64,000 nt of DNA. It comes from Crocinitomicaceae bacterium (GTDB lineage Bacteria > Bacteroidota > Bacteroidia > Flavobacteriales_D > Crocinitomicaceae). The notes below the pieces were generated by a model. That model made no database searches and was not told the origin of the DNA. It saw only the letters and a list, made by a program, of their open reading frames with translations. Below are positions 1,376-26,929 of the stretch, piece after piece. Position numbers and translations under genes: made by a program. Location of the stretch: positions 26,567 through 90,566 of the forward strand of contig JAQXCN010000013.1 of the NCBI GenBank assembly GCA_029251865.1, in the 5' to 3' direction. Every line of letters starts with the position of its first letter. Position 1 is the first letter of the stretch.

Positions 1376-1544
1376 TTGTGTTGTTTGTTGTTGATACAAA
1401 TATCAATTTTTAAGCAAAAAATATAAAAGAACAAAACAGGGGTTTTTTAAATCTAGAAAGGCCTACTCAGTTACCTCTAGGTAATGATACGGTAATCGAT
1501 ACGAAAAAATACTTAGACCCAAAATGGTATTAAAAAAAGACTTT

Positions 1545-1552
1545 TATCTTTG
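1545..1552 (+). promoter_or_regulatory. Putative -7 box TATCTTTG
   Basis: Matches the Bacteroidota TAnnTTTG consensus; lies inside the longest ORF but upstream of ATG 1621. Confidence 0.5.
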
Positions 1553-1620
1553 CAGAAATTTACGTCAAAACTTTACAATAAAGCGTAAAAAAGACACTAA
1601 CAATATATTTCTAGACATCA

Positions 1621-4600
1621 TGAAATTATCTGCATTAATTTTGTTTTTCGTTATTTCATTTCACTCAATTGCGTGTGACGGAAGTTCCATTAATATCGTT
1701 TCTCAATCTACTAATCCAGATGGTAGCATTACGTATGAACTAAATCTTTTTCTCGATTTAGGAGGTTCTGATGTAGCCCATTATGGCTTTACATTGGCCT
1801 TTTTATCCGCATCAAACAATCCTATCGTTATGCCTGGTGGTTTCGATCCGTTAATTTCTCAAAGTGATTTAACATCAGGCATAAGTGATGACTTAATTGG
1901 GCTGATTGGTAATGATGTGAATTCCATTGCAAATGACACAGATTGGGCACAATATGAGAATAGGACAGATGTTCTAAGCTATGAATCTAACGGGATTTTT
2001 CCTTCTGCCTCAACAGACTACAGTATGACGCTATTTGTTACCGTTATGGGATGCGTAGAAGACATAGAATTTGACTCGAATACCAATTCTGGAAACCCCG
2101 TTTGTATATACACCGCAAATACTGGGCAAGTTTGTGGTGGTTGCAATGTCTCCTCCGGAGATATTACGATTACAGGAGGAAGTCTTGTCGGTTCAAATGA
2201 ATATGATCTTTCAAACTGTGAAACGATAAACTTTGCGGTAACGAATGAGGAACTCAACGGAGGGGCCTTAACCTTTGGGTGGGCTGTTTTTAGTTGCGAA
2301 CCAAATCTACCATTTACAGTCGCAGAAATACTAGACTTTAATAATAACCCCTGTTATTTGGGTTCAGATTATGGCCTCACAACAGATGATATTGATGCAG
2401 GTGGAATATCAGGAACGATTACAGGCGGGTATGGCCAACTTTGGATTCTGCCTTACACCAGTGACGTGGCAAATTCATTAGATGTTGATGGAGACGCTTG
2501 TTATGATTTTGGCGATGTTATGCAGATTAACTATGTTCCTCCATCCTGTGGAGATTGTGCTTCAGCCACTTGTCCAGTGGGAAGTGTCGCTACTTTTGAT
2601 GACCGCACTTATCTCCAATGTGATGACCCATGTGCTGATTTAAATGATATGACTTATGTTACATATCATACAATAACAACCGATACTTTCGGTAATGTTG
2701 GTGTTGTTCAACAGCTTTTATTTGAACAAGGCCTCTGCAGTGGCTTGAGCCGTTCTGCAACATTGAGAGAGGTTTCTAACGCTTGTTCAGGACCAGATAT
2801 TGCTCCCACCATCCTCAATGCCAATGGAGTTGGAAGTGGTTTTAACCCAGAATGGATCGGCTTAACACCCAATACAAATTATATCTTGACAATAACTACC
2901 ATCATAGGAACGGACTGTGACTACGACCAAGGATGTATTGACTTTTATGGGATTCCAGGATGCCTTGCCAATACAGGAATCACAGAAGTACTTACCTCGG
3001 ATGCATCGAATACTGATTTTGTTCTTTGCTTTAATGAAAGTATAGACTTAACGAGTACAGGGTATACGTTACCAGATGCATCACCAAATTCGAGTATGGG
3101 CTATGCGCTCTACACATGTTTGCCGACGACCAATAATCCTGCAACAGATGCTTGTTTTTCCGGTCAATATGTCATTGGAGATGCAGCCAACAGCGTTAAC
3201 AATGGAACATTTGCTCCCGCACTAGCAGCGGATAATCAAACCATTTGGATGGTTCCAATTACAATGGATATGGCCACACCACCGATATTTAATCATGATT
3301 CAGATGAAGATGGTTGTTTTGCCATGGGTACACCAATTGAAATTACCTATTTGAATCCTATAACAACATCGGAAGTAACAGATTGTGGTTCTGGCACCGT
3401 GAACGTAAATGTGAGCGGTGGATTTCCTGAATTCTTTACTGGTAATTACAATTTAACGAATACAGGATCAGGTACCTTAAGCGCTACAACAATAAATAAC
3501 AGTGGAGGTTCAGTAATAATATCGGGATTAATCAATGGAGATGCCTACAATTTAAGTATTACAGATGAAAATGGTTGTTCTCACGTATTCTCTGGGATTT
3601 TCACCTGTTTTGAATGTGGAAGCTGTACAACTCCTGATTGCCTTATTGCTGGTGCGTATCCCGACTATGAAACCGCAGCTGACCCTATGAATCAGTGTTC
3701 ACAAATAAACTTGATGGCCTCAAACCCTGTGAATGATGGTGTGTTTACTTCTTACCATCAAGTGGTCTCTTCTCCAGATGGAACCCTTGGCGTTATTATA
3801 ACTTCAGGAGTAAATGATGTAGGAGCAGGGTCATGCACAGTAAATCGTTTGGCGAACTTGTACCCAATAAACGGACCCTGCACGATTGGAACAGGAATAG
3901 TTCCTATTCCTCCCGCACAAGGCTGGCTTCCTATTTACAACCCTGAATTTACAGGTTTAACGCCCAATACCACGTATATCCTTCAAGTGACATTCACTGT
4001 GCCATTGGGATGCGAATTAGTGGATCACTGCGAATCATATTACTACCCAGAAATATGTCAAATCACAGACATCTCAGGAGTCATTTTGAACTGCGACCCC
4101 GTCGACAATACCTATAGCGCTGAAGTAACCGTGAGCTACTCATCGAACCCTGAAAATGGAACACTTGACATCTATATGCCAGATTCACATTCTTTCGCCA
4201 TTACCACAAGTCCCCAAACATTAGTTATCGATGGACTTAGCGCAGACGGTCAAATGGTTGATGTTAGTGCAGCATTTAGTGACGAAAACAGTTGCTCTTC
4301 TACGGCCCTTGATTTATTTGAAGCACCAAGTATTCAAGATTGTGGAATTATTATCCCAACAGCATTTACACCTGACGGAGATAATACAAATGATGTTTGG
4401 GAATTGGGCGGTATTGACTTAATCTATCCAGAAAACAAGGTATATGTATACAATAGATGGGGTAACTTAATTTTTGAAAGCCCTTCAGGTGCTTATGAAC
4501 AAAACCCGTGGAATGGAACTTTCAATGACGAAGTCCTTCCCGTTGGTTCGTTTTATTATATCATAAATTACAATGACAGTTTTACAGATGCTAGTAATGG

Positions 4601-4622
4601 AACGGTAAGTATACTAAAATAA
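1621..4622 (+). CDS. Large secreted protein with T9SS type B (CHU_C, gliding motility-associated) C-terminal domain
   Basis: Signal peptide MKLSALILFFVISFHSIAC; C-terminus IIPTAFTPDGDNTNDVWELGGIDLIYPENKVYVYNRWGNLIFESPSGAYEQNPWNGTFNDEVLPVGSFYYII. The longest ORF begins at 1524, but ATG 1621 starts the signal peptide. Confidence 0.88.
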
Positions 4623-4672: not shown

Positions 4673-6850
4673 TTATTTAACAACCAATTTTCGTGTAGCT
4701 ACGGAGGACTGGTTTTCTAAAAGATTAATGAAGTATATACCTGGATTTAATTCACCTGTCTCATATTTTGTTACCATTGCAACATCCATTTTTTCAACAA
4801 TCTGGCCACTGGCACTTATTATTGTAAGCTGATCTAAGTTCTCATTTGACCATGTTACTGTTGCAATTGTATTTGTTGGATTTGGATAAATTTTAACATC
4901 GTGATTCGAAATCTCATCAATTCCTACTGAGCTTAAATCTTCTATGGTAACATTTACCTGCGTCATACATAAATTGAAGTCAGTAATAGTCACCTCATAA
5001 AAACCTTCGGTTACGTCATACAAATCTTCAGAATCGGCTCCTGTATTCCAATCAAATGAATAAGGCGCCATTCCTCCGTAAACAGTAAGGTTAAGATTTG
5101 AAAGTTCATCTTGAAATATTGGCTCATCAACCATCAATTCTGCCTGAATCAATTCTGGCTCAAGAACTTCGTACGAGGCAAAAGATTCACAACCATTTCC
5201 ATCCGTGACTTTTACGCGATAGGTCCCTGCATGAAGTTCATTTATGTCTTCAGTAATCGCACCGTGAATCCATTCAAAGGTATAATCAGGCATTCCCTCA
5301 ACAACAGTTATGTCTATAGCACCTGTTGCCGTTCCGTTGCAGTTTACATGCTGAATTTGTTCTTCGATTAAAACAGGAACGAAAGACTCAACATCAACTT
5401 CCAAGCTTGCGGTACAACCTATGGCATCTGTAACTGTTAAAGCATAAGAACCTGAAGGAACATTCAAAAGGTTTAAACTTTCTGAACCATTTGACCAAAG
5501 CGCATTAAAAGGAGCATTCCCTCCTGTAATGTCGATAATAACATCACCACCAATCTGACCACAAGAAACACTTACCTCTGGATCTAACTCAAACACACTA
5601 AATTGTGCTGCTAATTCGACTGCTGCTCCCGCATCCAATCGACCTTCGCCTATCAATCCGATATAATTTGGATTTAAAGCATCTGTATTAAAAGAAGAAC
5701 TTTTCAATATCCACTCGATATCATCATTAGTCAAACATGGATTAACATCTAATAATAAGCCAACAGTACCAGTCACGTGCGGAGCCGCATATGATGTTCC
5801 CGATGCCACAATATTCCAATTAGGAGCAGGGCTAATCGTAAGATCGTAACCAGGAGCACTTAAATCAACCATCGCATTATGTTGGTGTGTTGAAGATGCA
5901 TTTCCTTCAATGCGCTCATGATTATTATTTGGACCAATACTCGTTACTGAAAAAACATGATTACAAGATGCAGGGTAAACTAAACTCTCAGCACTTCCAC
6001 AAGTAGAACCATTTCCAGCAGCAGCGACGATAAATGTTCCATTTTCATAAACCTCATCAATAATATCTTGAACATATTGACTGAATTCACAACCTGAAGT
6101 CCAACTAAGGTTCACAACTTTATGTCCAGCATAAGATGCCGCTAAAACTTCATTGTAATTCATTTGGTAAAATGCCAAAGAACTATTATAACCGATATGA
6201 CTTTGCAGTAACTCATTATTCGTTTCTCCCGCTGCAATAATTGAAACGGCCGTACCATGTGTCGATGATGTTAAGTTTGAAGTATCATAATAAATAACCT
6301 GATTAACCAACTCAGGGTGGGTTACATCTATGTTCTGATCAGAAATTGCGATTGAAACAGAAGCGTTACCAACAGAATAATCCCATGCATTCTCAGCATT
6401 AATTAAATCTAACGAATAATCAGAAGATGTATTACCATAATCATTTGGAGTATGCAGTGTTTTGTATTCTGGTGCATATTCAACAGAAGATAGCGCCGGA
6501 AGTTTAGAAAGCTCATAAAAAAGGATTTCTTTATCCTGAGCAGAAGTAAACTCATAAACTTTCAAAAGCTTTTCAGACCTTGAAGCAGGAACGGCACGTT
6601 GAACAGTCTTAATATTTAGGGCTTTGAGTACATTGTTCAATTGAGCATCATTCGAAACAAGCTCTCCTTCCTGATTTATAAAAGGCACATCGTTCACACT
6701 TGATATAGTTGCCCATACTTTGTTTTGAAAAGAATCGATTGTAGAATCAACATTGTTTACCTCTACAACTCCAGCAAAAAGCGAAAATGCTGAGAGCATG
6801 ATGAATGTAAATGATAAGGAAAAAGTTTTAATAGCATTTAAAGTTTTCAT
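4673..6850 (-). CDS. Secreted S8 (subtilisin) peptidase with SprB-like repeats and T9SS type A sorting domain
   Basis: Triad motifs 'SDQNIDVTHPEL', 'HGTAVSIIAAG', 'SGTSYAAPHVTG'; three SprB-like repeats; C-term 'IYPNPTNTIATVTW...GIYFINLLENQSSVATRKLVVK'. ATG 6850 (MKTLNAIKTFSLSF) gives a signal peptide. Confidence 0.88.
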   Translation of the reverse strand: MKTLNAIKTFSLSFTFIMLSAFSLFAGVVEVNNVDSTIDSFQNKVWATISSVNDVPFINQEGELVSNDAQLNNVLKALNIKTVQRAVPASRSEKLLKVYEFTSAQDKEILFYELSKLPALSSVEYAPEYKTLHTPNDYGNTSSDYSLDLINAENAWDYSVGNASVSIAISDQNIDVTHPELVNQVIYYDTSNLTSSTHGTAVSIIAAGETNNELLQSHIGYNSSLAFYQMNYNEVLAASYAGHKVVNLSWTSGCEFSQYVQDIIDEVYENGTFIVAAAGNGSTCGSAESLVYPASCNHVFSVTSIGPNNNHERIEGNASSTHQHNAMVDLSAPGYDLTISPAPNWNIVASGTSYAAPHVTGTVGLLLDVNPCLTNDDIEWILKSSSFNTDALNPNYIGLIGEGRLDAGAAVELAAQFSVFELDPEVSVSCGQIGGDVIIDITGGNAPFNALWSNGSESLNLLNVPSGSYALTVTDAIGCTASLEVDVESFVPVLIEEQIQHVNCNGTATGAIDITVVEGMPDYTFEWIHGAITEDINELHAGTYRVKVTDGNGCESFASYEVLEPELIQAELMVDEPIFQDELSNLNLTVYGGMAPYSFDWNTGADSEDLYDVTEGFYEVTITDFNLCMTQVNVTIEDLSSVGIDEISNHDVKIYPNPTNTIATVTWSNENLDQLTIISASGQIVEKMDVAMVTKYETGELNPGIYFINLLENQSSVATRKLVVK

Positions 6851-7015
6851 ATCGAGTTGTTTTAAATAGTTGGAACAAATCTCCATGAAGTTCTTTGATG
6901 AATAAAAAATTTGAGATACTAAGGATGAAAAATACGAGGGGCTACGAAATAATGAATACGTAAAGAACACGCAAGAGATAAGTAAGAATACTTAGCTGAA
7001 AATGAAAATGCAAGC

Positions 7016-8092
7016 TTATTTTTGAGAAAACCGAAAGAGTATAATTGCCGTGAAAGCGAAGAAAACATTGGGTATCCATACAGCAACGAGTGATGGGAAA
7101 CCAAGGTTTAGAGCCGCTACAGTTAACATTTTCATCGCAAAAATATAGACAAATACAATTCCTAGCCCAATGGCGATGTTTACCCCGATCCCACCTCTTC
7201 TCTTTTGAGAAGCAACTGAAACTCCAATAAGCGTTAATATATATGCCGCAAAAGGATAAGAAGTCCTTTGGTGAAGCTCAATTTCATAAAGCGGTACAAT
7301 TGATGACCCTTTTGCACGCTCTCTTTGAATAAATGATTTTAATTCACTAAAAGACATAGTCTCGGCCGTATTTTCTCTCTGGGCCATATCTGATATACTA
7401 AAGTTAAAAGTCGTATCCAATTTTTTAATATGTCTTATAGATATAGAATCTTTAAAAAATCGTTTTTCATAAAAGTCGTGAAGTTCCCATTTCTTGGAAT
7501 TTGGAATGTTTAAAGCATATCTTGATTTTAGAAAATAAATGGGTGCTCTATTTGAAGACCATTTTTGAAAAGTAAAATCATTTACTCTTCCGTCACTATT
7601 CGTATAATTTGAAAAATAGACAGACTCATTTCCTGGGAATTCTGCATGATAGTCTCTCACCACCATGGCGTCTCGGTAGTATTTCTCTTCAAAGGACAAG
7701 CGAACTTTATTAGCCCTTGGTACTAAAAAGTGGTTAATTCCTAATGAAAAAAACATAAGTATTGTCGCAGAAATAAAATAAGGTCTTAGATAACGAGATA
7801 GTGGTTTACCACTGAACCAAATTGGAATAATCTCAGTATCCTTCGCCATAATGGTTGTAAACCAAATGACAGAAAGAAATACAATCATAGAGGTGAACAT
7901 ATTACCATAAAGAATGATGAAGTTCAAATAATAATCAAAAATGATTTCACTCAATGGTGCTTCATTGGATATAAATTCACCCAATTTTTCAGACACGTCA
8001 AAGACTATAGCAAACATCATAATCACACCCAGCATAAAAAAGAATGTGGAAAGGAATTTTTTAATGATATATCGATCAATAATAGAAAGCAT
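7016..8092 (-). CDS. LptF/LptG (YjgP/YjgQ) family permease
   Basis: N-term 'MLSIIDRYIIKKFLSTFFFMLGVIMMFAIVFDVSEK', C-terminal TM helices; abuts tgt. Confidence 0.88.
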   Translation of the reverse strand: MLSIIDRYIIKKFLSTFFFMLGVIMMFAIVFDVSEKLGEFISNEAPLSEIIFDYYLNFIILYGNMFTSMIVFLSVIWFTTIMAKDTEIIPIWFSGKPLSRYLRPYFISATILMFFSLGINHFLVPRANKVRLSFEEKYYRDAMVVRDYHAEFPGNESVYFSNYTNSDGRVNDFTFQKWSSNRAPIYFLKSRYALNIPNSKKWELHDFYEKRFFKDSISIRHIKKLDTTFNFSISDMAQRENTAETMSFSELKSFIQRERAKGSSIVPLYEIELHQRTSYPFAAYILTLIGVSVASQKRRGGIGVNIAIGLGIVFVYIFAMKMLTVAALNLGFPSLVAVWIPNVFFAFTAIILFRFSQK

Positions 8093-9222
8093 CAGAGACG
8101 TCTATTCATTTGTTTAACCATTGTATTTTTCCATGAGGTAAAACTGCCATCTATTATTCGTCTTCTAGCCTCTTTCATAAGCCTGAGATAAAAAGCTAGG
8201 TTATGAATTGTCGCTATCTGCATTCCTAAAAATTCTCCAGATTTTAATAAATGACGCAGATACGCCTTGGAGTAATGCAAATCAACATAACAATCACTCT
8301 CCTCGTCGATAACAGAGAAATCAGTTGACCATTTCTTGTTCTTTATATTAATCGTTCCGTTTGCTGTAAACAATAGACCGTGTCTTGCATTTCTCGAAGG
8401 CATTACGCAATCAAACATATCTACACCCAAAGCAATACATTCCAATAAATTCCATGGCGTTCCTACCCCCATTAAGTACCTTGGTTTGTCTTTTGGTAAA
8501 ATCTCAGTAACCAAGGCTGTCATCTCATAAAGATCCTCTTCTGGCTCGCCTACAGAAAGGCCTCCAATTGCATTACCTACAGCATCAAATGAAGAAATAA
8601 CTTTTGCCGATTCTTGTCTCAAATCTTTATAGGTACTTCCTTGAACTATTGGAAAAAGTGACTGCTCAAAACCATAATTACATGATGTATTTTCCATTTG
8701 TTCCATGCATCGCTTTAACCACCTATGGGTCATACCCATAGAGTTTTTGGCGTATCCGTAATCACAAGGGTATGGTGTGCATTCATCAAAAGCCATAATG
8801 ATATCTGCTCCTATACTTCGCTGAATATCAATTGCACGCTCCGGTGTAAAATAATGGTAACTGCCATCAATATGGGATTGAAACTTCACCCCTTCTTCTG
8901 TTATTTTTCTTGAACCTGACAGAGAATATACTTGATACCCCCCACTATCAGTGAGTATTGGCCTATCCCAATTCATGAATTTATGCAAGCCACCTGCATT
9001 TTCAATTATATCTGTACCAGGTCGCAGGAATAAATGATAGGTATTACCTAAAATTATTTCTGCTTGAACATCCTGCTTCAATTCTCTTTGATGAACACCC
9101 TTAACAGTCCCTGCGGTGCCCACAGGCATAAATATTGGAGTCTCAATTTCGCCGTGATCCGTAAAGAGCTTTCCGGCCCGCGCTCCAGAATTACTGTCCT
9201 TATTTAAAATATCGAAGTGCAT
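8092..9222 (-). CDS. tgt: Queuine tRNA-ribosyltransferase
   Basis: 'MPVGTAGTVKGVHQ', 'ILGNTYHLFLRPGTDII', 'LTDSGGYQVYSLS', 'NAIGGLSVGEP', 'RYLMGVGTPWNLLE'. Start placed at MHFDIL because a -7 box lies at 9247-9254. Confidence 0.95.
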   Translation of the reverse strand: MHFDILNKDSNSGARAGKLFTDHGEIETPIFMPVGTAGTVKGVHQRELKQDVQAEIILGNTYHLFLRPGTDIIENAGGLHKFMNWDRPILTDSGGYQVYSLSGSRKITEEGVKFQSHIDGSYHYFTPERAIDIQRSIGADIIMAFDECTPYPCDYGYAKNSMGMTHRWLKRCMEQMENTSCNYGFEQSLFPIVQGSTYKDLRQESAKVISSFDAVGNAIGGLSVGEPEEDLYEMTALVTEILPKDKPRYLMGVGTPWNLLECIALGVDMFDCVMPSRNARHGLLFTANGTINIKNKKWSTDFSVIDEESDCYVDLHYSKAYLRHLLKSGEFLGMQIATIHNLAFYLRLMKEARRRIIDGSFTSWKNTMVKQMNRRL

Positions 9223-9246
9223 AAAAATGTTAATAACAATATGTGT

Positions 9247-9254
9247 CAAAGATA
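9247..9254 (-). promoter_or_regulatory. Putative -7 box (TATCTTTG on the minus strand) for tgt-lptF
   Basis: + strand 'caaagata' = TATCTTTG in antisense, 24 nt before ATG 9222. Confidence 0.45.
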
Positions 9255-9297
9255 CATTGAAATCATTTCATAAGTCATATTTGTAAAAGCAATATAC

Positions 9298-10434
9298 ATG
9301 AACTTCATAAAGCAATATATCAACGATGAATTTAACGCAGTCTTATTGGGCGTTTTCATACTAACGATTCTAATTCAATTGTATTATGTCCTCCTGATAT
9401 TTAGAAAACTTGCCTTTTACAAGAATAAACCAAAAAACATCTCGAATTCAATTCCAATCAGTATAATTATTTGCGCGCGCAATGAAAGTGATAAACTATT
9501 TTCCAATTTACCTCATATTCTGGAACAGCGCTATCCAAATTTCGAAGTCATAGTGGTAAACCACCAATCTATTGATAATAGTAAAGAAATACTTGATGCA
9601 TTCTGTCAGCAATATGACAATCTTAGAATAGTTGAACTCCACCAGGACAAACACCTACGACCCGGTAAAAAACTACCGTTAACAGTCGGGATAAAAGCAG
9701 CAAAAAATGCCCATATTCTTCTAACAGATGCTGACTGTGTACCTTCATCAAAATTATGGATTCATCATATGGCGTCAAGTTCAAGTGCTAATGAAATAGT
9801 ACTCGGTTATGGGCCCCTCATTCAAAAACCTGGTTTGCTGAATAAACTCTTGCGCTTTGATACGGCATGGATTGGTATAAATTATTTATCCATGGCCTTG
9901 CATAAAAAGCCTTATATGGGAGTAGGCCGCAATTTAGCATATACGCAGGAGACTTTTTTTACTGTAAATGGGTTTAAATCCCATTACGCGATTGCATCCG
10001 GTGATGATGATTTATTTATTCAGGAAGCGACCAGAAATAAACAAAATTACGCTATTCAAATTGAACCTGAATCCTATATGTTTTCTCCTGCTAAGGAGAC
10101 ATTGACCGAATGGATCAAGCAAAAATCTAGGCACTATACAACCACACCAAAATATAGGTTTATTAAAAAACTATTGTTAGCAATCTACCCTATTTCATTG
10201 ATTCTTGCTTGGATTTCTTTCGTTTCTTTGATTTTACAGGAGGTATACCCCTATCACTTAGGATTTATAATGGTTGTGTTTTATGCCATAAAATGGTTTA
10301 TACAAGGGAAATCGCTCCTTCAATTACAAGAGAAAAAATTTGCGCTATTTTTTCCTTTGTGGGATATGATTTATGCACTTATAATCCCAATGATATATGT
10401 TATTGCAAAAAATAAAAAGAATGCTACATGGTAG
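9298..10434 (+). CDS. Family 2 glycosyltransferase, membrane-associated
   Basis: 'ISIIICARNESDKLFSNLPHILEQRYPNFEVIVVNHQSIDNS', 'ILLTDADCVPSS', 'FTVNGFKSHYAIASGDDDLF', N- and C-terminal TM helices. Confidence 0.88.
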   Translation: MNFIKQYINDEFNAVLLGVFILTILIQLYYVLLIFRKLAFYKNKPKNISNSIPISIIICARNESDKLFSNLPHILEQRYPNFEVIVVNHQSIDNSKEILDAFCQQYDNLRIVELHQDKHLRPGKKLPLTVGIKAAKNAHILLTDADCVPSSKLWIHHMASSSSANEIVLGYGPLIQKPGLLNKLLRFDTAWIGINYLSMALHKKPYMGVGRNLAYTQETFFTVNGFKSHYAIASGDDDLFIQEATRNKQNYAIQIEPESYMFSPAKETLTEWIKQKSRHYTTTPKYRFIKKLLLAIYPISLILAWISFVSLILQEVYPYHLGFIMVVFYAIKWFIQGKSLLQLQEKKFALFFPLWDMIYALIIPMIYVIAKNKKNATW

Positions 10435-11033
10435 AAAAAAGTCATTTATCCGATAAAGCAAAATACGACTTAAACCTTGTTGAGGCGGCAATTAAAGGAG
10501 ATCAGCTTGCCTATGCAGATCTCATGGAGCGTTACCGCGAATCTATTTATTATATGATGCTCAAAATGGTTAAAAATCCTGATGATGCAGATGATTTAAC
10601 TATTGAGGCATTCGGAAAAGCATTTAATCGTCTTCCTCAATATTCACCAAGTTTCGCATTTAGTACCTGGCTCTTCAAAATTGCATCAAATAATTGTATT
10701 GATTTCATTCGGAAGAAAAGAATCAAAGTAACTTCTATGGATAGTGGTGTGAGAACGGATAATGGTGATGTCATTCAAATAGATACAAAATCAAACAATC
10801 TGAATCCTGAAGAAACATTTATTCAAGACCAACGTGTTATTCATATGAGATTGCTAGTGAGCAAACTAAAACCAAAATATAGAGACCTTGTAGAAATGAG
10901 ATATTTTAAAGAATTGAGCTACGAGGAGATCGCTACAGAATTAAAACTTCCACTTGGCACAGTCAAAGCTCAACTTTTTAGAGCCAGAGATTTCCTGGCG
11001 GGAATGGCTGAAAAGACAAAAGACTCCATTTAA
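10428..11033 (+). CDS. RNA polymerase sigma-70 factor, ECF-like
   Basis: Sigma2 'YADLMERYRESIYYMMLKMVKNPDDADDLTIEAFGKAF', sigma4 'YRDLVEMRYFKELSYEEIATELKLPLGTVKAQLFRAR'. Confidence 0.93.
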   Translation: MVEKSHLSDKAKYDLNLVEAAIKGDQLAYADLMERYRESIYYMMLKMVKNPDDADDLTIEAFGKAFNRLPQYSPSFAFSTWLFKIASNNCIDFIRKKRIKVTSMDSGVRTDNGDVIQIDTKSNNLNPEETFIQDQRVIHMRLLVSKLKPKYRDLVEMRYFKELSYEEIATELKLPLGTVKAQLFRARDFLAGMAEKTKDSI

Positions 11034-11648
11034 ATGGATGATTTAAAACAATATTTTCCTGATTTATCCTCCGTTCAAATTGATCAACTTGATCAACTAC
11101 CCCGTATTTATGAGGAATGGAATGCTATGATAAACGTGATTTCACGTAAGGATATGATTCACTTTAAAGAAAGACATCTACTGCACTCTCTTGGGATTCA
11201 GAAACATTCAAACTTTGAAAAAGGAAGCTATATTCTAGATATCGGGACAGGAGGTGGATTTCCCGGCGTACCATTAGCAATAGTAAATCCAGAATGTCAA
11301 TTTGTTCTTCTCGATTCTATCGGAAAGAAATTAAAGGTAATTGAGGAAGTTAAATCAAAACTGAATTTAAAGAATATTAGCACGATTCATTCTAGAGTAG
11401 AAGAGCACACTGGTGCATACAACTATATTGTTAGCAGAGCGGTGACAAACCTGCCTAAATTCATTCAGTTAACTAAACATCTCATCCCAAAAGAAAGCAA
11501 GGATTTTCGTGGAATTTACTACCTGAAAGGCGGAGAATTTAATGATGAACTAAATACAATTCAAATGAAGCACAAGGTTTACGATCTTCAACTTTGTTTT
11601 GAAGGGGCTTTCTTTGAAACAAAAAAAGTTATTGAATTAACGCATTAA
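11034..11648 (+). CDS. rsmG: 16S rRNA (guanine-N7) methyltransferase RsmG
   Basis: 'NVISRKDMIHFKERHLLHSL', 'YILDIGTGGGFPGVPLAI', 'VSRAVTNLPKF'. Confidence 0.94.
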   Translation: MDDLKQYFPDLSSVQIDQLDQLPRIYEEWNAMINVISRKDMIHFKERHLLHSLGIQKHSNFEKGSYILDIGTGGGFPGVPLAIVNPECQFVLLDSIGKKLKVIEEVKSKLNLKNISTIHSRVEEHTGAYNYIVSRAVTNLPKFIQLTKHLIPKESKDFRGIYYLKGGEFNDELNTIQMKHKVYDLQLCFEGAFFETKKVIELTH

Positions 11649-12031
11649 TTTAAAAGGACTGGGTATATCAGACTAAACGAGGGAATATCTGCATAGAACA
11701 ACTCATCTGAACTCAGATCTCGAAAGAAAAATTTACCGTACATCATTCCCATTGAAACAACCATTTCGCAGCCACTTACGTAACTAAACTCTTCGTTAGG
11801 CATGAGCGTAGGTGTTTCACCAACAACACCTTCTCCGCTAATCGTTGAAATACCATGTAACAAATGAAGAACGTGCCATTCTCGTGACAAAAGTTGAACA
11901 GGATAACTAAGACGATTACATATGGTTATCTCGTAGTTGTAAAAGAAGTTGGAATCTGCCTCTGTAAAAAGATCTTTTCGAAACCAACTGGAGACTGAAA
12001 TTTCAATACCTTTAGTCTGCGTATGCATCAT
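11645..12031 (-). CDS. apaG: ApaG family protein
   Basis: 128 aa; 'YEITICNRLSYPVQLLSREWHVLHLLHGISTISGEGVVGETPTLMPNEEFSYVSGCEM'. Confidence 0.92.
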   Translation of the reverse strand: MMHTQTKGIEISVSSWFRKDLFTEADSNFFYNYEITICNRLSYPVQLLSREWHVLHLLHGISTISGEGVVGETPTLMPNEEFSYVSGCEMVVSMGMMYGKFFFRDLSSDELFYADIPSFSLIYPVLLN

Positions 12032-12141
12032 AAAATAAAGTTATTCTATTCTATTCATATATCCATAAAAATAAATGATTTTAACTTTGAATTGCTCAGT
12101 AATTGCCTACTATTGATTATTTTATGTTGTATGTAAAAAAA

Positions 12142-12161
12142 AGAAAAGTAAATACTTTTCT
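12142..12161. promoter_or_regulatory. Palindrome AGAAAAGTA-AA-TACTTTTCT (candidate operator)
   Basis: Perfect 9-bp arms with 2-nt centre in the apaG/nqrA divergent intergenic region. Confidence 0.5.
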
Positions 12162-12202
12162 GTGACGCTATTCGATTTGATGATTCGTTTTCTATCCCTA
12201 CT

Positions 12203-12221
12203 ATTTAGAACAGTTCTAAAT
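12203..12221. promoter_or_regulatory. Palindrome ATTTAGAAC-A-GTTCTAAAT (candidate operator)
   Basis: Perfect 9-bp arms with 1-nt centre, 57 nt upstream of the putative nqrA -7 box. Confidence 0.5.
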
Positions 12222-12277
12222 TATTATTTTAAAGGATAATATTATCACCCATTACCTTACTACGCTTAGGAATTTCG

Positions 12278-12285
12278 TAATTTTG
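12278..12285 (+). promoter_or_regulatory. Putative -7 box TAATTTTG for the nqr operon
   Basis: TAnnTTTG consensus, 25 nt upstream of the nqrA ATG. Confidence 0.5.
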
Positions 12286-12310
12286 TCACCTAATTATAAT
12301 TGCAATTTTC

Positions 12311-13663
12311 ATGTCCAATACAATCAGTATTCGAAAAGGTCTGAATATCAGACTTGTAGGAGAAGCAAAGAAAGAAATTAAAGATATCCCAGTTTCTAAA
12401 ACTGTAGGGGTTTCACCCCTTGATTTTCATGGGTTAACACCAAAGCTTGTAGTCAAAGAAGGTGATAACGTTCAAATTGGAGATGTTCTGTTTTTCGACA
12501 AAAAAGAAGCCTCAGTAAAGTTTATTAGTCCTGTCAGTGGAACCATTGAATCGATTGTTCGTGGTGAAAAACGAAGAATATTAAACGTTCTTATTGCCAC
12601 AGATGGTAAACAAACGGCCAAAAAATTTGATGTTTCTAAAGCAGCATCATTTAATTCTGAAGAAACTAAAGCCTTATTACTAGAAACTGGATTCTGGAGT
12701 TCTATCAAACAAAGGCCGTTGGATGTCATTGCAAATCCGAATAACGAAGCCAAAGCCATGTTTGTATCTTCGTTCGACTCTGCACCTCTAGCACCTGACT
12801 ATGAATATATTTTGGGTGACGACATAGATAACCTTCAAAAAGGTTTTGATGCGCTTTCAACATTGACAGATGGTAAAGTTCATTTGAGCAGTAGGCCAAA
12901 TTCAATATTTAGTAAAATAAATGGTGTGAAGCATCATACATTTGATGGCGTTCACCCAGCCGGTAATGTAGGAACCCAAATGCACCATATCGATCCTGTA
13001 AACAAAGGAGAATTCGTTTGGTCCATAAACATACAAGAAGTTGCAGCCATTGGAAGATTGATCAATGAAGGTACGGTGTCATCATCACGAAAAATAGCTC
13101 TTACTGGATCGGAACTTAAAAATCCAACCTATGTTAATGTATCCAAAGGGACAGAGATGAGCGCCATCCTCGACAAAGGTATTGTAGGTTCAAATGTGAG
13201 ATATATTTCAGGAAATGTTTTAACTGGCGACCAAAAGAATCCGACAGACTTTATCGGATATTATCACAATCAAATCACTGTTATTCCAGAAGGCAACGAG
13301 TATAAATTCTTTTTGACTAGTGGATGGTTAGGCCATGGGTTTGATAAATTTTCAAACTCCAGATTATTCCCGACATTTTTGCTGCCTAAAAGCAAAAAAT
13401 TCACGTTGGATACAAATACGAATGGAGAAGAAAGAGCTTTCGTTGTTTCTGGTGAACTTGAAAAGGTATTTCCCTTTGACATCTTACCCGTGCAATTAAC
13501 AAAAGCAGCGATTACGCAAGATATAGATGGAATGGAAAACTTAGGGATTTACGAAGTTGCTCCAGAAGACTTTGCCCTTTGTGAATACGTTTGTACTACT
13601 AAAATCAATATACAAGACAAAATAAGACAAGGACTAGACTTGATTGCTAGTGAATGTATGTAA
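12311..13663 (+). CDS. nqrA: Na+-translocating NADH:quinone reductase subunit A
   Basis: 'IRKGLNIRLVGEAKKEI', 'FHGLTPKLVVKEGDNVQIGDVLFFDK', 'HHTFDGVHPAGNVGTQMHHIDPV'; first gene of a complete nqrA-F order. Confidence 0.96.
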   Translation: MSNTISIRKGLNIRLVGEAKKEIKDIPVSKTVGVSPLDFHGLTPKLVVKEGDNVQIGDVLFFDKKEASVKFISPVSGTIESIVRGEKRRILNVLIATDGKQTAKKFDVSKAASFNSEETKALLLETGFWSSIKQRPLDVIANPNNEAKAMFVSSFDSAPLAPDYEYILGDDIDNLQKGFDALSTLTDGKVHLSSRPNSIFSKINGVKHHTFDGVHPAGNVGTQMHHIDPVNKGEFVWSINIQEVAAIGRLINEGTVSSSRKIALTGSELKNPTYVNVSKGTEMSAILDKGIVGSNVRYISGNVLTGDQKNPTDFIGYYHNQITVIPEGNEYKFFLTSGWLGHGFDKFSNSRLFPTFLLPKSKKFTLDTNTNGEERAFVVSGELEKVFPFDILPVQLTKAAITQDIDGMENLGIYEVAPEDFALCEYVCTTKINIQDKIRQGLDLIASECM

Positions 13664-25945: not shown

Positions 25946-26929
25946 GTGAAGAAAAAGCATTTATTCCTATTTGTTTTTGTGATCGCTTGTCTCTCGACAA
26001 CGTCCTTAAATTCAGTACGTTCGCAAGACCCAACGTTTACGCAGTTTTTCTCTAATCCGATTTATTTGAACCCTGCCCTAGCAGGATCTTCAGGTTGTCC
26101 GAGATTTGCAATGAACTACAGAAATGAATGGCCGCAGCTTACAGGAAACTATGTTACCTACTCAGCGGCTTTTGATACGTATGCAAAAAGCATATCGGGT
26201 GGTATAGGTATTTTAGCGATGCACGACCAACAAGGTCAGGGAACAATATCTACGTCAATGCTCGGCGCCATTTATTCTTATAACTTAAAAGTAAATCGAA
26301 AATTTTCTTTGATGTTCGGGGCAAGAGCGGCATGGTTTCAAAAATTCTTGGATTGGGATAAGTTAACCTTTGGAGATATGATTGACCCAAGGAGAGGCTT
26401 TATTTATCAAACCGGAGATGTTCCAAGAGGAAACGGAAGAAGAGGATACTTTGACGCATCTGCTGGATTTGTTGGTTTTGGTAAAAACTTCTATTTTGGA
26501 GGTGCAATTCATCACCTGAATAGACCAGATGAATCAATGATTCTAGGTGAATCGAGACTTCCAATGCGATTTACAGGGCATGCTGGTGCTGACATCCCCT
26601 TAGGGAGAAAAGGCAGATACACAAGTACTACGAGTATAATGCCGAACATCATTTATCAGTATCAAAATGGATTTCAGGAATTGAACATTGGAACCTATAT
26701 AAAATATGGAAACTTTACAGTTGGTGCTTGGTATAGAAATCGAGATGCCTTTATACTCTGTTTTGGAATAACAACAGATAAAATTAAATTGGGTTACAGT
26801 TATGATATTACCGTTTCTAAATTAGGAAATGGTATTTCTGGTGGTTCCCACGAAGTTTCGCTTGGTTTCAATCTAAAATGCAGAAGAAAGCCAAGAAACT
26901 TTAGAAAGATATCATGTCCTTCTTTTTAG
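25946..26929 (+). CDS. PorP/SprF family T9SS membrane protein
   Basis: 'QDPTFTQFFSNPIYLNPALAGSSGCPRFAMNYRNEWP' is diagnostic; 'KLGYSYDITVSKLGNGISGGSHEVSLGF'. Probable GTG start at 25946 (signal peptide VKKKHLFLFVFVIACLS); the longest ORF begins at TTG 25922. Confidence 0.92.
   Translation: MKKKHLFLFVFVIACLSTTSLNSVRSQDPTFTQFFSNPIYLNPALAGSSGCPRFAMNYRNEWPQLTGNYVTYSAAFDTYAKSISGGIGILAMHDQQGQGTISTSMLGAIYSYNLKVNRKFSLMFGARAAWFQKFLDWDKLTFGDMIDPRRGFIYQTGDVPRGNGRRGYFDASAGFVGFGKNFYFGGAIHHLNRPDESMILGESRLPMRFTGHAGADIPLGRKGRYTSTTSIMPNIIYQYQNGFQELNIGTYIKYGNFTVGAWYRNRDAFILCFGITTDKIKLGYSYDITVSKLGNGISGGSHEVSLGFNLKCRRKPRNFRKISCPSF

Follow-up and report, generated by a model that had tools for sequence, protein, structure and literature searches.

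Marine Bacteroidota have abundant T9SS type B surface proteins, many of whose extracellular modules are nameless. The substrates usually, but not universally, have a PorP/SprF gene next to their own. PorP-like proteins retain type B proteins at the cell surface (PMC9143113), and in F. johnsoniae three of twelve type B substrates have no adjacent PorP/SprF gene, the three orphans using one distant shuttle (PMC12618676). The F. johnsoniae protein SprB and the P. gingivalis protein PG1035 have in common with the protein described here a CHU_C sorting domain (PF13585/TIGR04131), a signal peptide and a long chain of extracellular beta-modules. Unlike the SprB-type proteins of F. johnsoniae, however, the protein described here has repeated modules that are not SprB repeats.

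The gene was analyzed in a 64,000-nucleotide stretch of contig JAQXCN010000013.1 from a Crocinitomicaceae bacterium, hereafter called the window. Its open reading frame was listed as 1524–4622 (+), and comparison with the homologues in L009 and L010 set the start at the ATG at 1620. The encoded protein is ordinary in overall kind, a T9SS type B multidomain surface protein, but new in its building blocks, two modules of about 140 aa each (A and B). The gene has the following features, with positions in the window:

1620–4622, + strand: whole gene, for a predicted T9SS type B (CHU_C) secreted multidomain protein of about 1000 aa with the N-terminal signal sequence MKLSALILFFVISFHSIA
1674–2132, + strand: N-terminal domain (153 aa), without a match in Pfam or PHROGs; L010 has a different domain in its place
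2133–2546, + strand: module B1, with the Dx[DN]xD-type loop DVDGDACYDFGD
2547–2960, + strand: module A1, from local alignment with A2 and relatives
2961–3383, + strand: module B2, with the loop DSDEDGCFAMGT
3384–3614, + strand: segment S (77 aa), between B2 and A2, Ig/SprB-like by eye and under Pfam thresholds
3615–4049, + strand: module A2, from local alignment with A1; AlphaFold2 model
4050–4328, + strand: segment T, preceding the sorting domain, Ig-like by eye and under Pfam thresholds
4329–4619, + strand: CHU_C/TIGR04131 T9SS type B C-terminal sorting domain (CTD; Pfam PF13585, TIGR04131)

These module boundaries slightly refine those of the initial annotation, which had proposed a plain B-A-B-A alternation. 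The order stood, but not as an uninterrupted run: B1, A1 and B2 are contiguous without a linker, and segment S is interposed before A2. In a phmmer search of PDB sequences, the N-terminal domain weakly matched the insecticidal Cry49Aa/Tpp49Aa protein (E 3.5e-4, 24 bits, 82 residues, nearly ungapped), a resemblance that is probably due to chance.

The C-terminal domain was the only one recognized in the protein by Pfam and NCBIfam, matching PF13585 (E 8.2e-19, 68 bits against a cut-off of 27) and TIGR04131 (E 8.1e-16, 57.9 bits against a cut-off of 35). This sorting domain marks the protein as a predicted T9SS type B substrate, in agreement with its earlier description as a CHU_C secreted protein. 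The hydrophobic N-terminus, judged by eye to be a signal peptide, is conserved in L009 and L010. Lipoprotein anchoring via its first cysteine (SIA-C) is not claimed, as the −3 residue is Ser and there is no canonical lipobox. The protein has 9 Lys+Arg against 116 Asp+Glu per 1001 residues; a low Lys+Arg content is also found in related type B proteins, but is not universal in relatives bearing A or B (0.4–7.1%).

The genome encodes SprA (TIGR04189, 2387 bits) and about ten PorP/SprF proteins. A search for a PorP/SprF gene adjacent to the target gene found none, the nearest lying 21 kb away at about 25955–26872. The CTD of the target protein is 60% identical to that of a second protein of this genome, in L110, and 46% identical to that of a third, in L111; no PorP/SprF match was found on either of those contigs. 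Our best guess, by analogy with F. johnsoniae, is that the target protein is served by a distant shared PorP/SprF shuttle. In the export route predicted from its sequence, the signal peptide would direct export by Sec and the type B CTD would lead the protein through the SprA translocon, probably via a PorP/SprF shuttle encoded elsewhere, which would also retain it on the surface.

When the two copies of each module were aligned by Smith–Waterman, A1 and A2 scored 144 (shuffle mean 34.9, sd 6.1, z 17.8), and B1 and B2 scored 95 (shuffle mean 33.4, sd 6.0, z 10.3). These scores bear out the claim of two unlike modules, each present twice with conserved blocks. Self-alignment, which had been suggested as a check, is thus significant by Smith–Waterman with shuffles, although the similarity falls below what default self-BLASTP of the protein lists: no off-diagonal match was reported, which suggests that the repeat is old. 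The silence of BLASTP and the biased composition of the protein (0.8% Lys+Arg) would also be expected if the repeat were a chance likeness of low-complexity, Cys/Asp/Thr-rich secreted sequence. However, the shuffles preserved composition and in neither case did any of 500 reach the observed score. Furthermore, a profile built from only the two window copies of A found A in L009, L010, L011 and L012 with i-E values of 1e-41 to 1e-65, and the corresponding B profile found B in L009 and L010 (about 1e-57 to 1e-65) and in L012 (6e-12). Chance likeness is refuted by these results, and we give it practically no weight. A relationship between A and B themselves was rejected, the hhalign profile comparison giving a probability of 0.4%.

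The initial annotation had also called the modules internally duplicated, as if a BA unit had been copied. This part did not hold. A1 is 70–75% identical to A modules of L009, L010, L071, L073 and L090, but only 28–32% identical to A2. A2 is 59–78% identical to its counterparts in L011, L009, L090 and the first A of L071, and 51% identical to that in L012. Likewise, B1 is 58–77% identical to B modules of L010, L009, L090, L071 and L073, but 27% identical to B2. A recent internal duplication was rejected, since A1, A2, B1 and B2 are each nearer to a counterpart in another bacterial family than to the partner in the same protein. The two ancient subtypes of each module must either predate the split of these families or have been exchanged between them. 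Nonsynonymous divergence is far lower than synonymous divergence; synonymous sites are saturated and give no usable dN/dS.

In L071, which belongs to another family of the order, positions 5002–10752 hold an ABABABAB array that repeats every 819 bp, its two complete middle units being identical at 817 of 819 positions. On this near-identity, the array is a recent tandem amplification within a surface-protein gene. Three identical 300-nt stretches spaced 819 bp apart were also seen in it. By subtype, the L071 modules run A2type-B1type-A1type-(B1-A1)x2-B2type, an order suggesting that the arrangement in the window may have arisen when A2 was moved behind segment S. A2 is absent from L010, and the Ig_7-containing region of L009 and L010 is absent from the window protein.

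To place A and B among known domains, 21 A and 21 B sequences from several genera were searched member by member with hmmscan and hmmsearch. Nothing beyond single chance-level matches was found in Pfam and NCBIfam, nothing of note in PHROGs, and chance-level or no matches when the A and B profiles were compared with PDB sequences. No relatives of either module were found among viral contigs. Of the SprB, PKD, Ig and fn3 families of Pfam, only fn3 was listed for the whole protein, at 15.3 bits against a gathering score of 25. The earlier statement that the modules are not Ig, PKD or SprB units is thereby supported for the protein and for the 21 + 21 members. The CHU_C-associated Ig_7 (PF19081), PKD_4 (PF18911) and SprB repeats (PF13573) are likewise extracellular modules and share proteins with A and B, but neither A nor B matches any of these, and both exceed them in length (about 140 aa) and have up to five cysteine pairs. 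By these profile searches, A and B are two module families outside the domain libraries searched.

An AlphaFold2 model of A2, made from a seven-sequence alignment, was all-beta with a pLDDT of 80.3 and a pTM of 0.80. A model of an A-B pair had a pLDDT of 54, too weak for reading B. Foldseek of the A2 model against the PDB gave no match with E < 1e-3, and all TM scores were < 0.5. At the top of the list stood ligand-binding domains of Eph receptors and collagen-binding domains of collagenases (among them 3jqw and 1nqd); CBM61 (2xom) was listed as well. A viral structure library gave nothing better than the PDB matches. For the low-confidence A-B model, Foldseek listed the collagen-binding domains 3jqw and 1nqd and the B. 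anthracis PPC domain 5sv5 with probabilities of 1.00, 0.91 and 0.93, together with meaningless two-domain matches. Across both models, the PPC/collagen-binding matches had TMt 0.42–0.49 and TMq ≤0.38, with best E values of 1.4e-2 (low-confidence A-B model) and 3.9e-2 (A2 model).

These matches raise the possibility that A, and perhaps B, are not new families but belong, much diverged, to a known beta-sandwich superfamily such as the PPC/collagen-binding domains or the carbohydrate-binding modules. The PPC/collagen-binding domains of ColG and ColH, including a ColG domain solved with calcium (5iku), recur in the lists and are also beta-sandwiches of secreted proteins. In addition, A has a PPC-like look, with conserved strands around the C-terminal 'gLtPnT.Y.l.it' strand. 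Set against this, the best match of A2 is a different jelly-roll, the Eph ligand-binding domain, and none of the 21 members had a profile match in Pfam, NCBIfam or PDB sequences. Compared with ColG and ColH there is no sequence match and the cysteine content is different. With E > 1e-3 and TM < 0.5, the matches to binding domains establish no fold family. We regard a diverged known superfamily as possible, but lean against it. From the models, we conclude that A is probably a beta-sandwich of uncertain superfamily, and describe B only as predicted all-beta.

The cysteines were followed through the alignments on trees built without the cysteine columns being tested. In A, columns 0 and 8 (module C1 and C9) are perfectly coupled, with both cysteines in 22 sequences and neither in 3. 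Columns 103 and 210 (21/4) and columns 66 and 199 (7/18) are also perfectly coupled, columns 38 and 218 nearly so, and columns 3 and 140 are invariant. Paired changes fell on shared branches in 2/2, 2/2, 2/2 and 3/4 cases. In B, columns 88 and 118 underwent six changes, all six of them joint on the same branches, and columns 5 and 203 are invariant. This pairwise gain and loss is strong indirect evidence for disulfides in both modules, in line with the disulfide-stabilised design proposed at the outset, and predicts four to five in A and two to three in B. The likely pairs are C176–C295 and C227–C246 in B1; C311–C319, C314–C390, C339–C440 and C374–C434 in A1; C449–C567, C501–C513 and C471–C590 associated with B2; and C667–C675, C670–C755, C694–C805 and C740–C799 in A2.

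One of these pairs would link neighboring domains. The N-terminal cysteine of B (C471 in B2) accompanies the first cysteine of a following non-A segment (C590). Where a B1-type module is followed by an A1-type module, the B cysteine stands at a shifted position (C201) and is accompanied by an additional cysteine in that A (C335), as judged by eye. Such co-occurrence, in few independent events, suggests inter-domain ties.

About 20 of 30 B sequences, including both window copies, have the motif D-x-[DN]-x-D-[GA]-C-[FYW], and about one third of B modules lack the loop. The motif agrees with the Dx[DN]xDG calcium loop (PMC3123361), known from EF-hand-like, dockerin and integrin calcium-blade sites. 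Unlike those, the B loop is placed in an all-beta, cysteine-rich domain and has an invariant Cys at position 7. Of the two window copies, B1 has the acidic residue further downstream, at loop position 12, and B2 lacks it; the Pfam EF-hand profile gave only a chance-level match to B members. We infer that the loop may bind calcium.

Close orthologues in L009, L010 and L011, and in the same-genus genomes L089 and L090, lie at the same locus, in the conserved order rbn, target gene, convergent T9SS subtilase, lptG and tgt; the L011 contig starts within the gene. In the sister genomes L099 and L100, whose LptG is 87–88% identical, the target gene is absent and the rbn–subtilase gap is only about 520 bp, aligning with the first ~180–230 bp of the intergenic DNA upstream of the gene in the window. 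By this comparison, the locus is conserved and the target gene as a whole is an accessory element of it. Between rbn and the target gene, a small minus-strand ORF (1169–1399) encodes 76 aa with one likely membrane segment, and the DNA of this region is ~67% identical in the sister genomes without the target gene. The convergent neighbor (4673–6970, − strand) is an S8 subtilase that carries SprB repeats and ends in a T9SS type A tail. In the closest relatives it lies beside the target gene or, where that is lacking, beside the empty site; it is absent from the rbn–lptG–tgt locus in several remoter members of the genus. In L012, a MAG labelled Bacteroidales, an A-B protein (6657–12755) lies directly upstream of tgt and lptG, housekeeping neighbors shared with the window despite deep divergence.

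Both modules are restricted, B being the commoner. Among 297 genomes sampled across the phylum, A was found in one, the window's own, and B in three; A occurred in 15 of 349 genomes of the order and B in 18 of 60 close relatives. In relatives, the modules occur as A-B, B-A, B-A-B-A, A-A, lone A and lone B, abutting and linker-free. The proteins that carry them, including those of other genera, are mostly CHU_C proteins with PKD, Ig_7 or SprB repeats. From this architecture and company, we consider the target protein to be a surface-anchored adhesive or binding stalk built from A and B beta modules, with a probability of roughly 0.6, its adhesion and ligand being part of the prediction.

Repeats act as passive spacers in many long surface proteins, and A and B might do the same, binding nothing and merely distancing the CTD or the distal N-terminal domain from the surface. 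The varying length of the tandem arrays, the near-identical copies in L071, the company of PKD, Ig and SprB repeats and the loss of A2 from L010 would all suit such a role. A spacer would, however, have no need for two ancient subtypes of each module retained side by side, nor would it explain why A residues far from the cysteines (NPEW, H41, R69) are conserved across genera. We consider a purely passive role a serious alternative, though less likely than not. Neither it nor descent from a PPC or carbohydrate-binding superfamily is mutually exclusive with the stalk, as both readings overlap with it.

In the binding stalk, the exposed part would be a chain of beta-sandwich domains from two families absent from the searched libraries, locked by disulfides (4–5 in A, 2–3 in B) and by the calcium-type loop in most B modules. 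The linker-free joins between A and B, and the extra cysteines that co-occur in B1-type modules and the A that follows, suggest that disulfides and calcium probably lock the tandem into a stiff arm. Stiffness, calcium binding and adhesion are all predictions here, as are export and anchorage. A more specific proposal, offered tentatively and rather improbable as a whole, is that A and B, as two extracellular domain families not described before, form a dedicated disulfide- and calcium-locked rod, in which the N-terminal cysteine of each B is tied to the next module (the extra cysteine of a following A, or the first cysteine of an Ig-like segment) and tandem AB amplification adjusts the length of the rigid arm.

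A lineage could alter the reach and the binding surface of such a protein by gaining, losing or relocating modules, and the L071 array provides an example of recent amplification of modules of this type. With a clear cysteine code and one confident model, A and B could become new Pfam entries. These families would label proteins of the order that are now anonymous, and would be tractable for work on structure and ligands.
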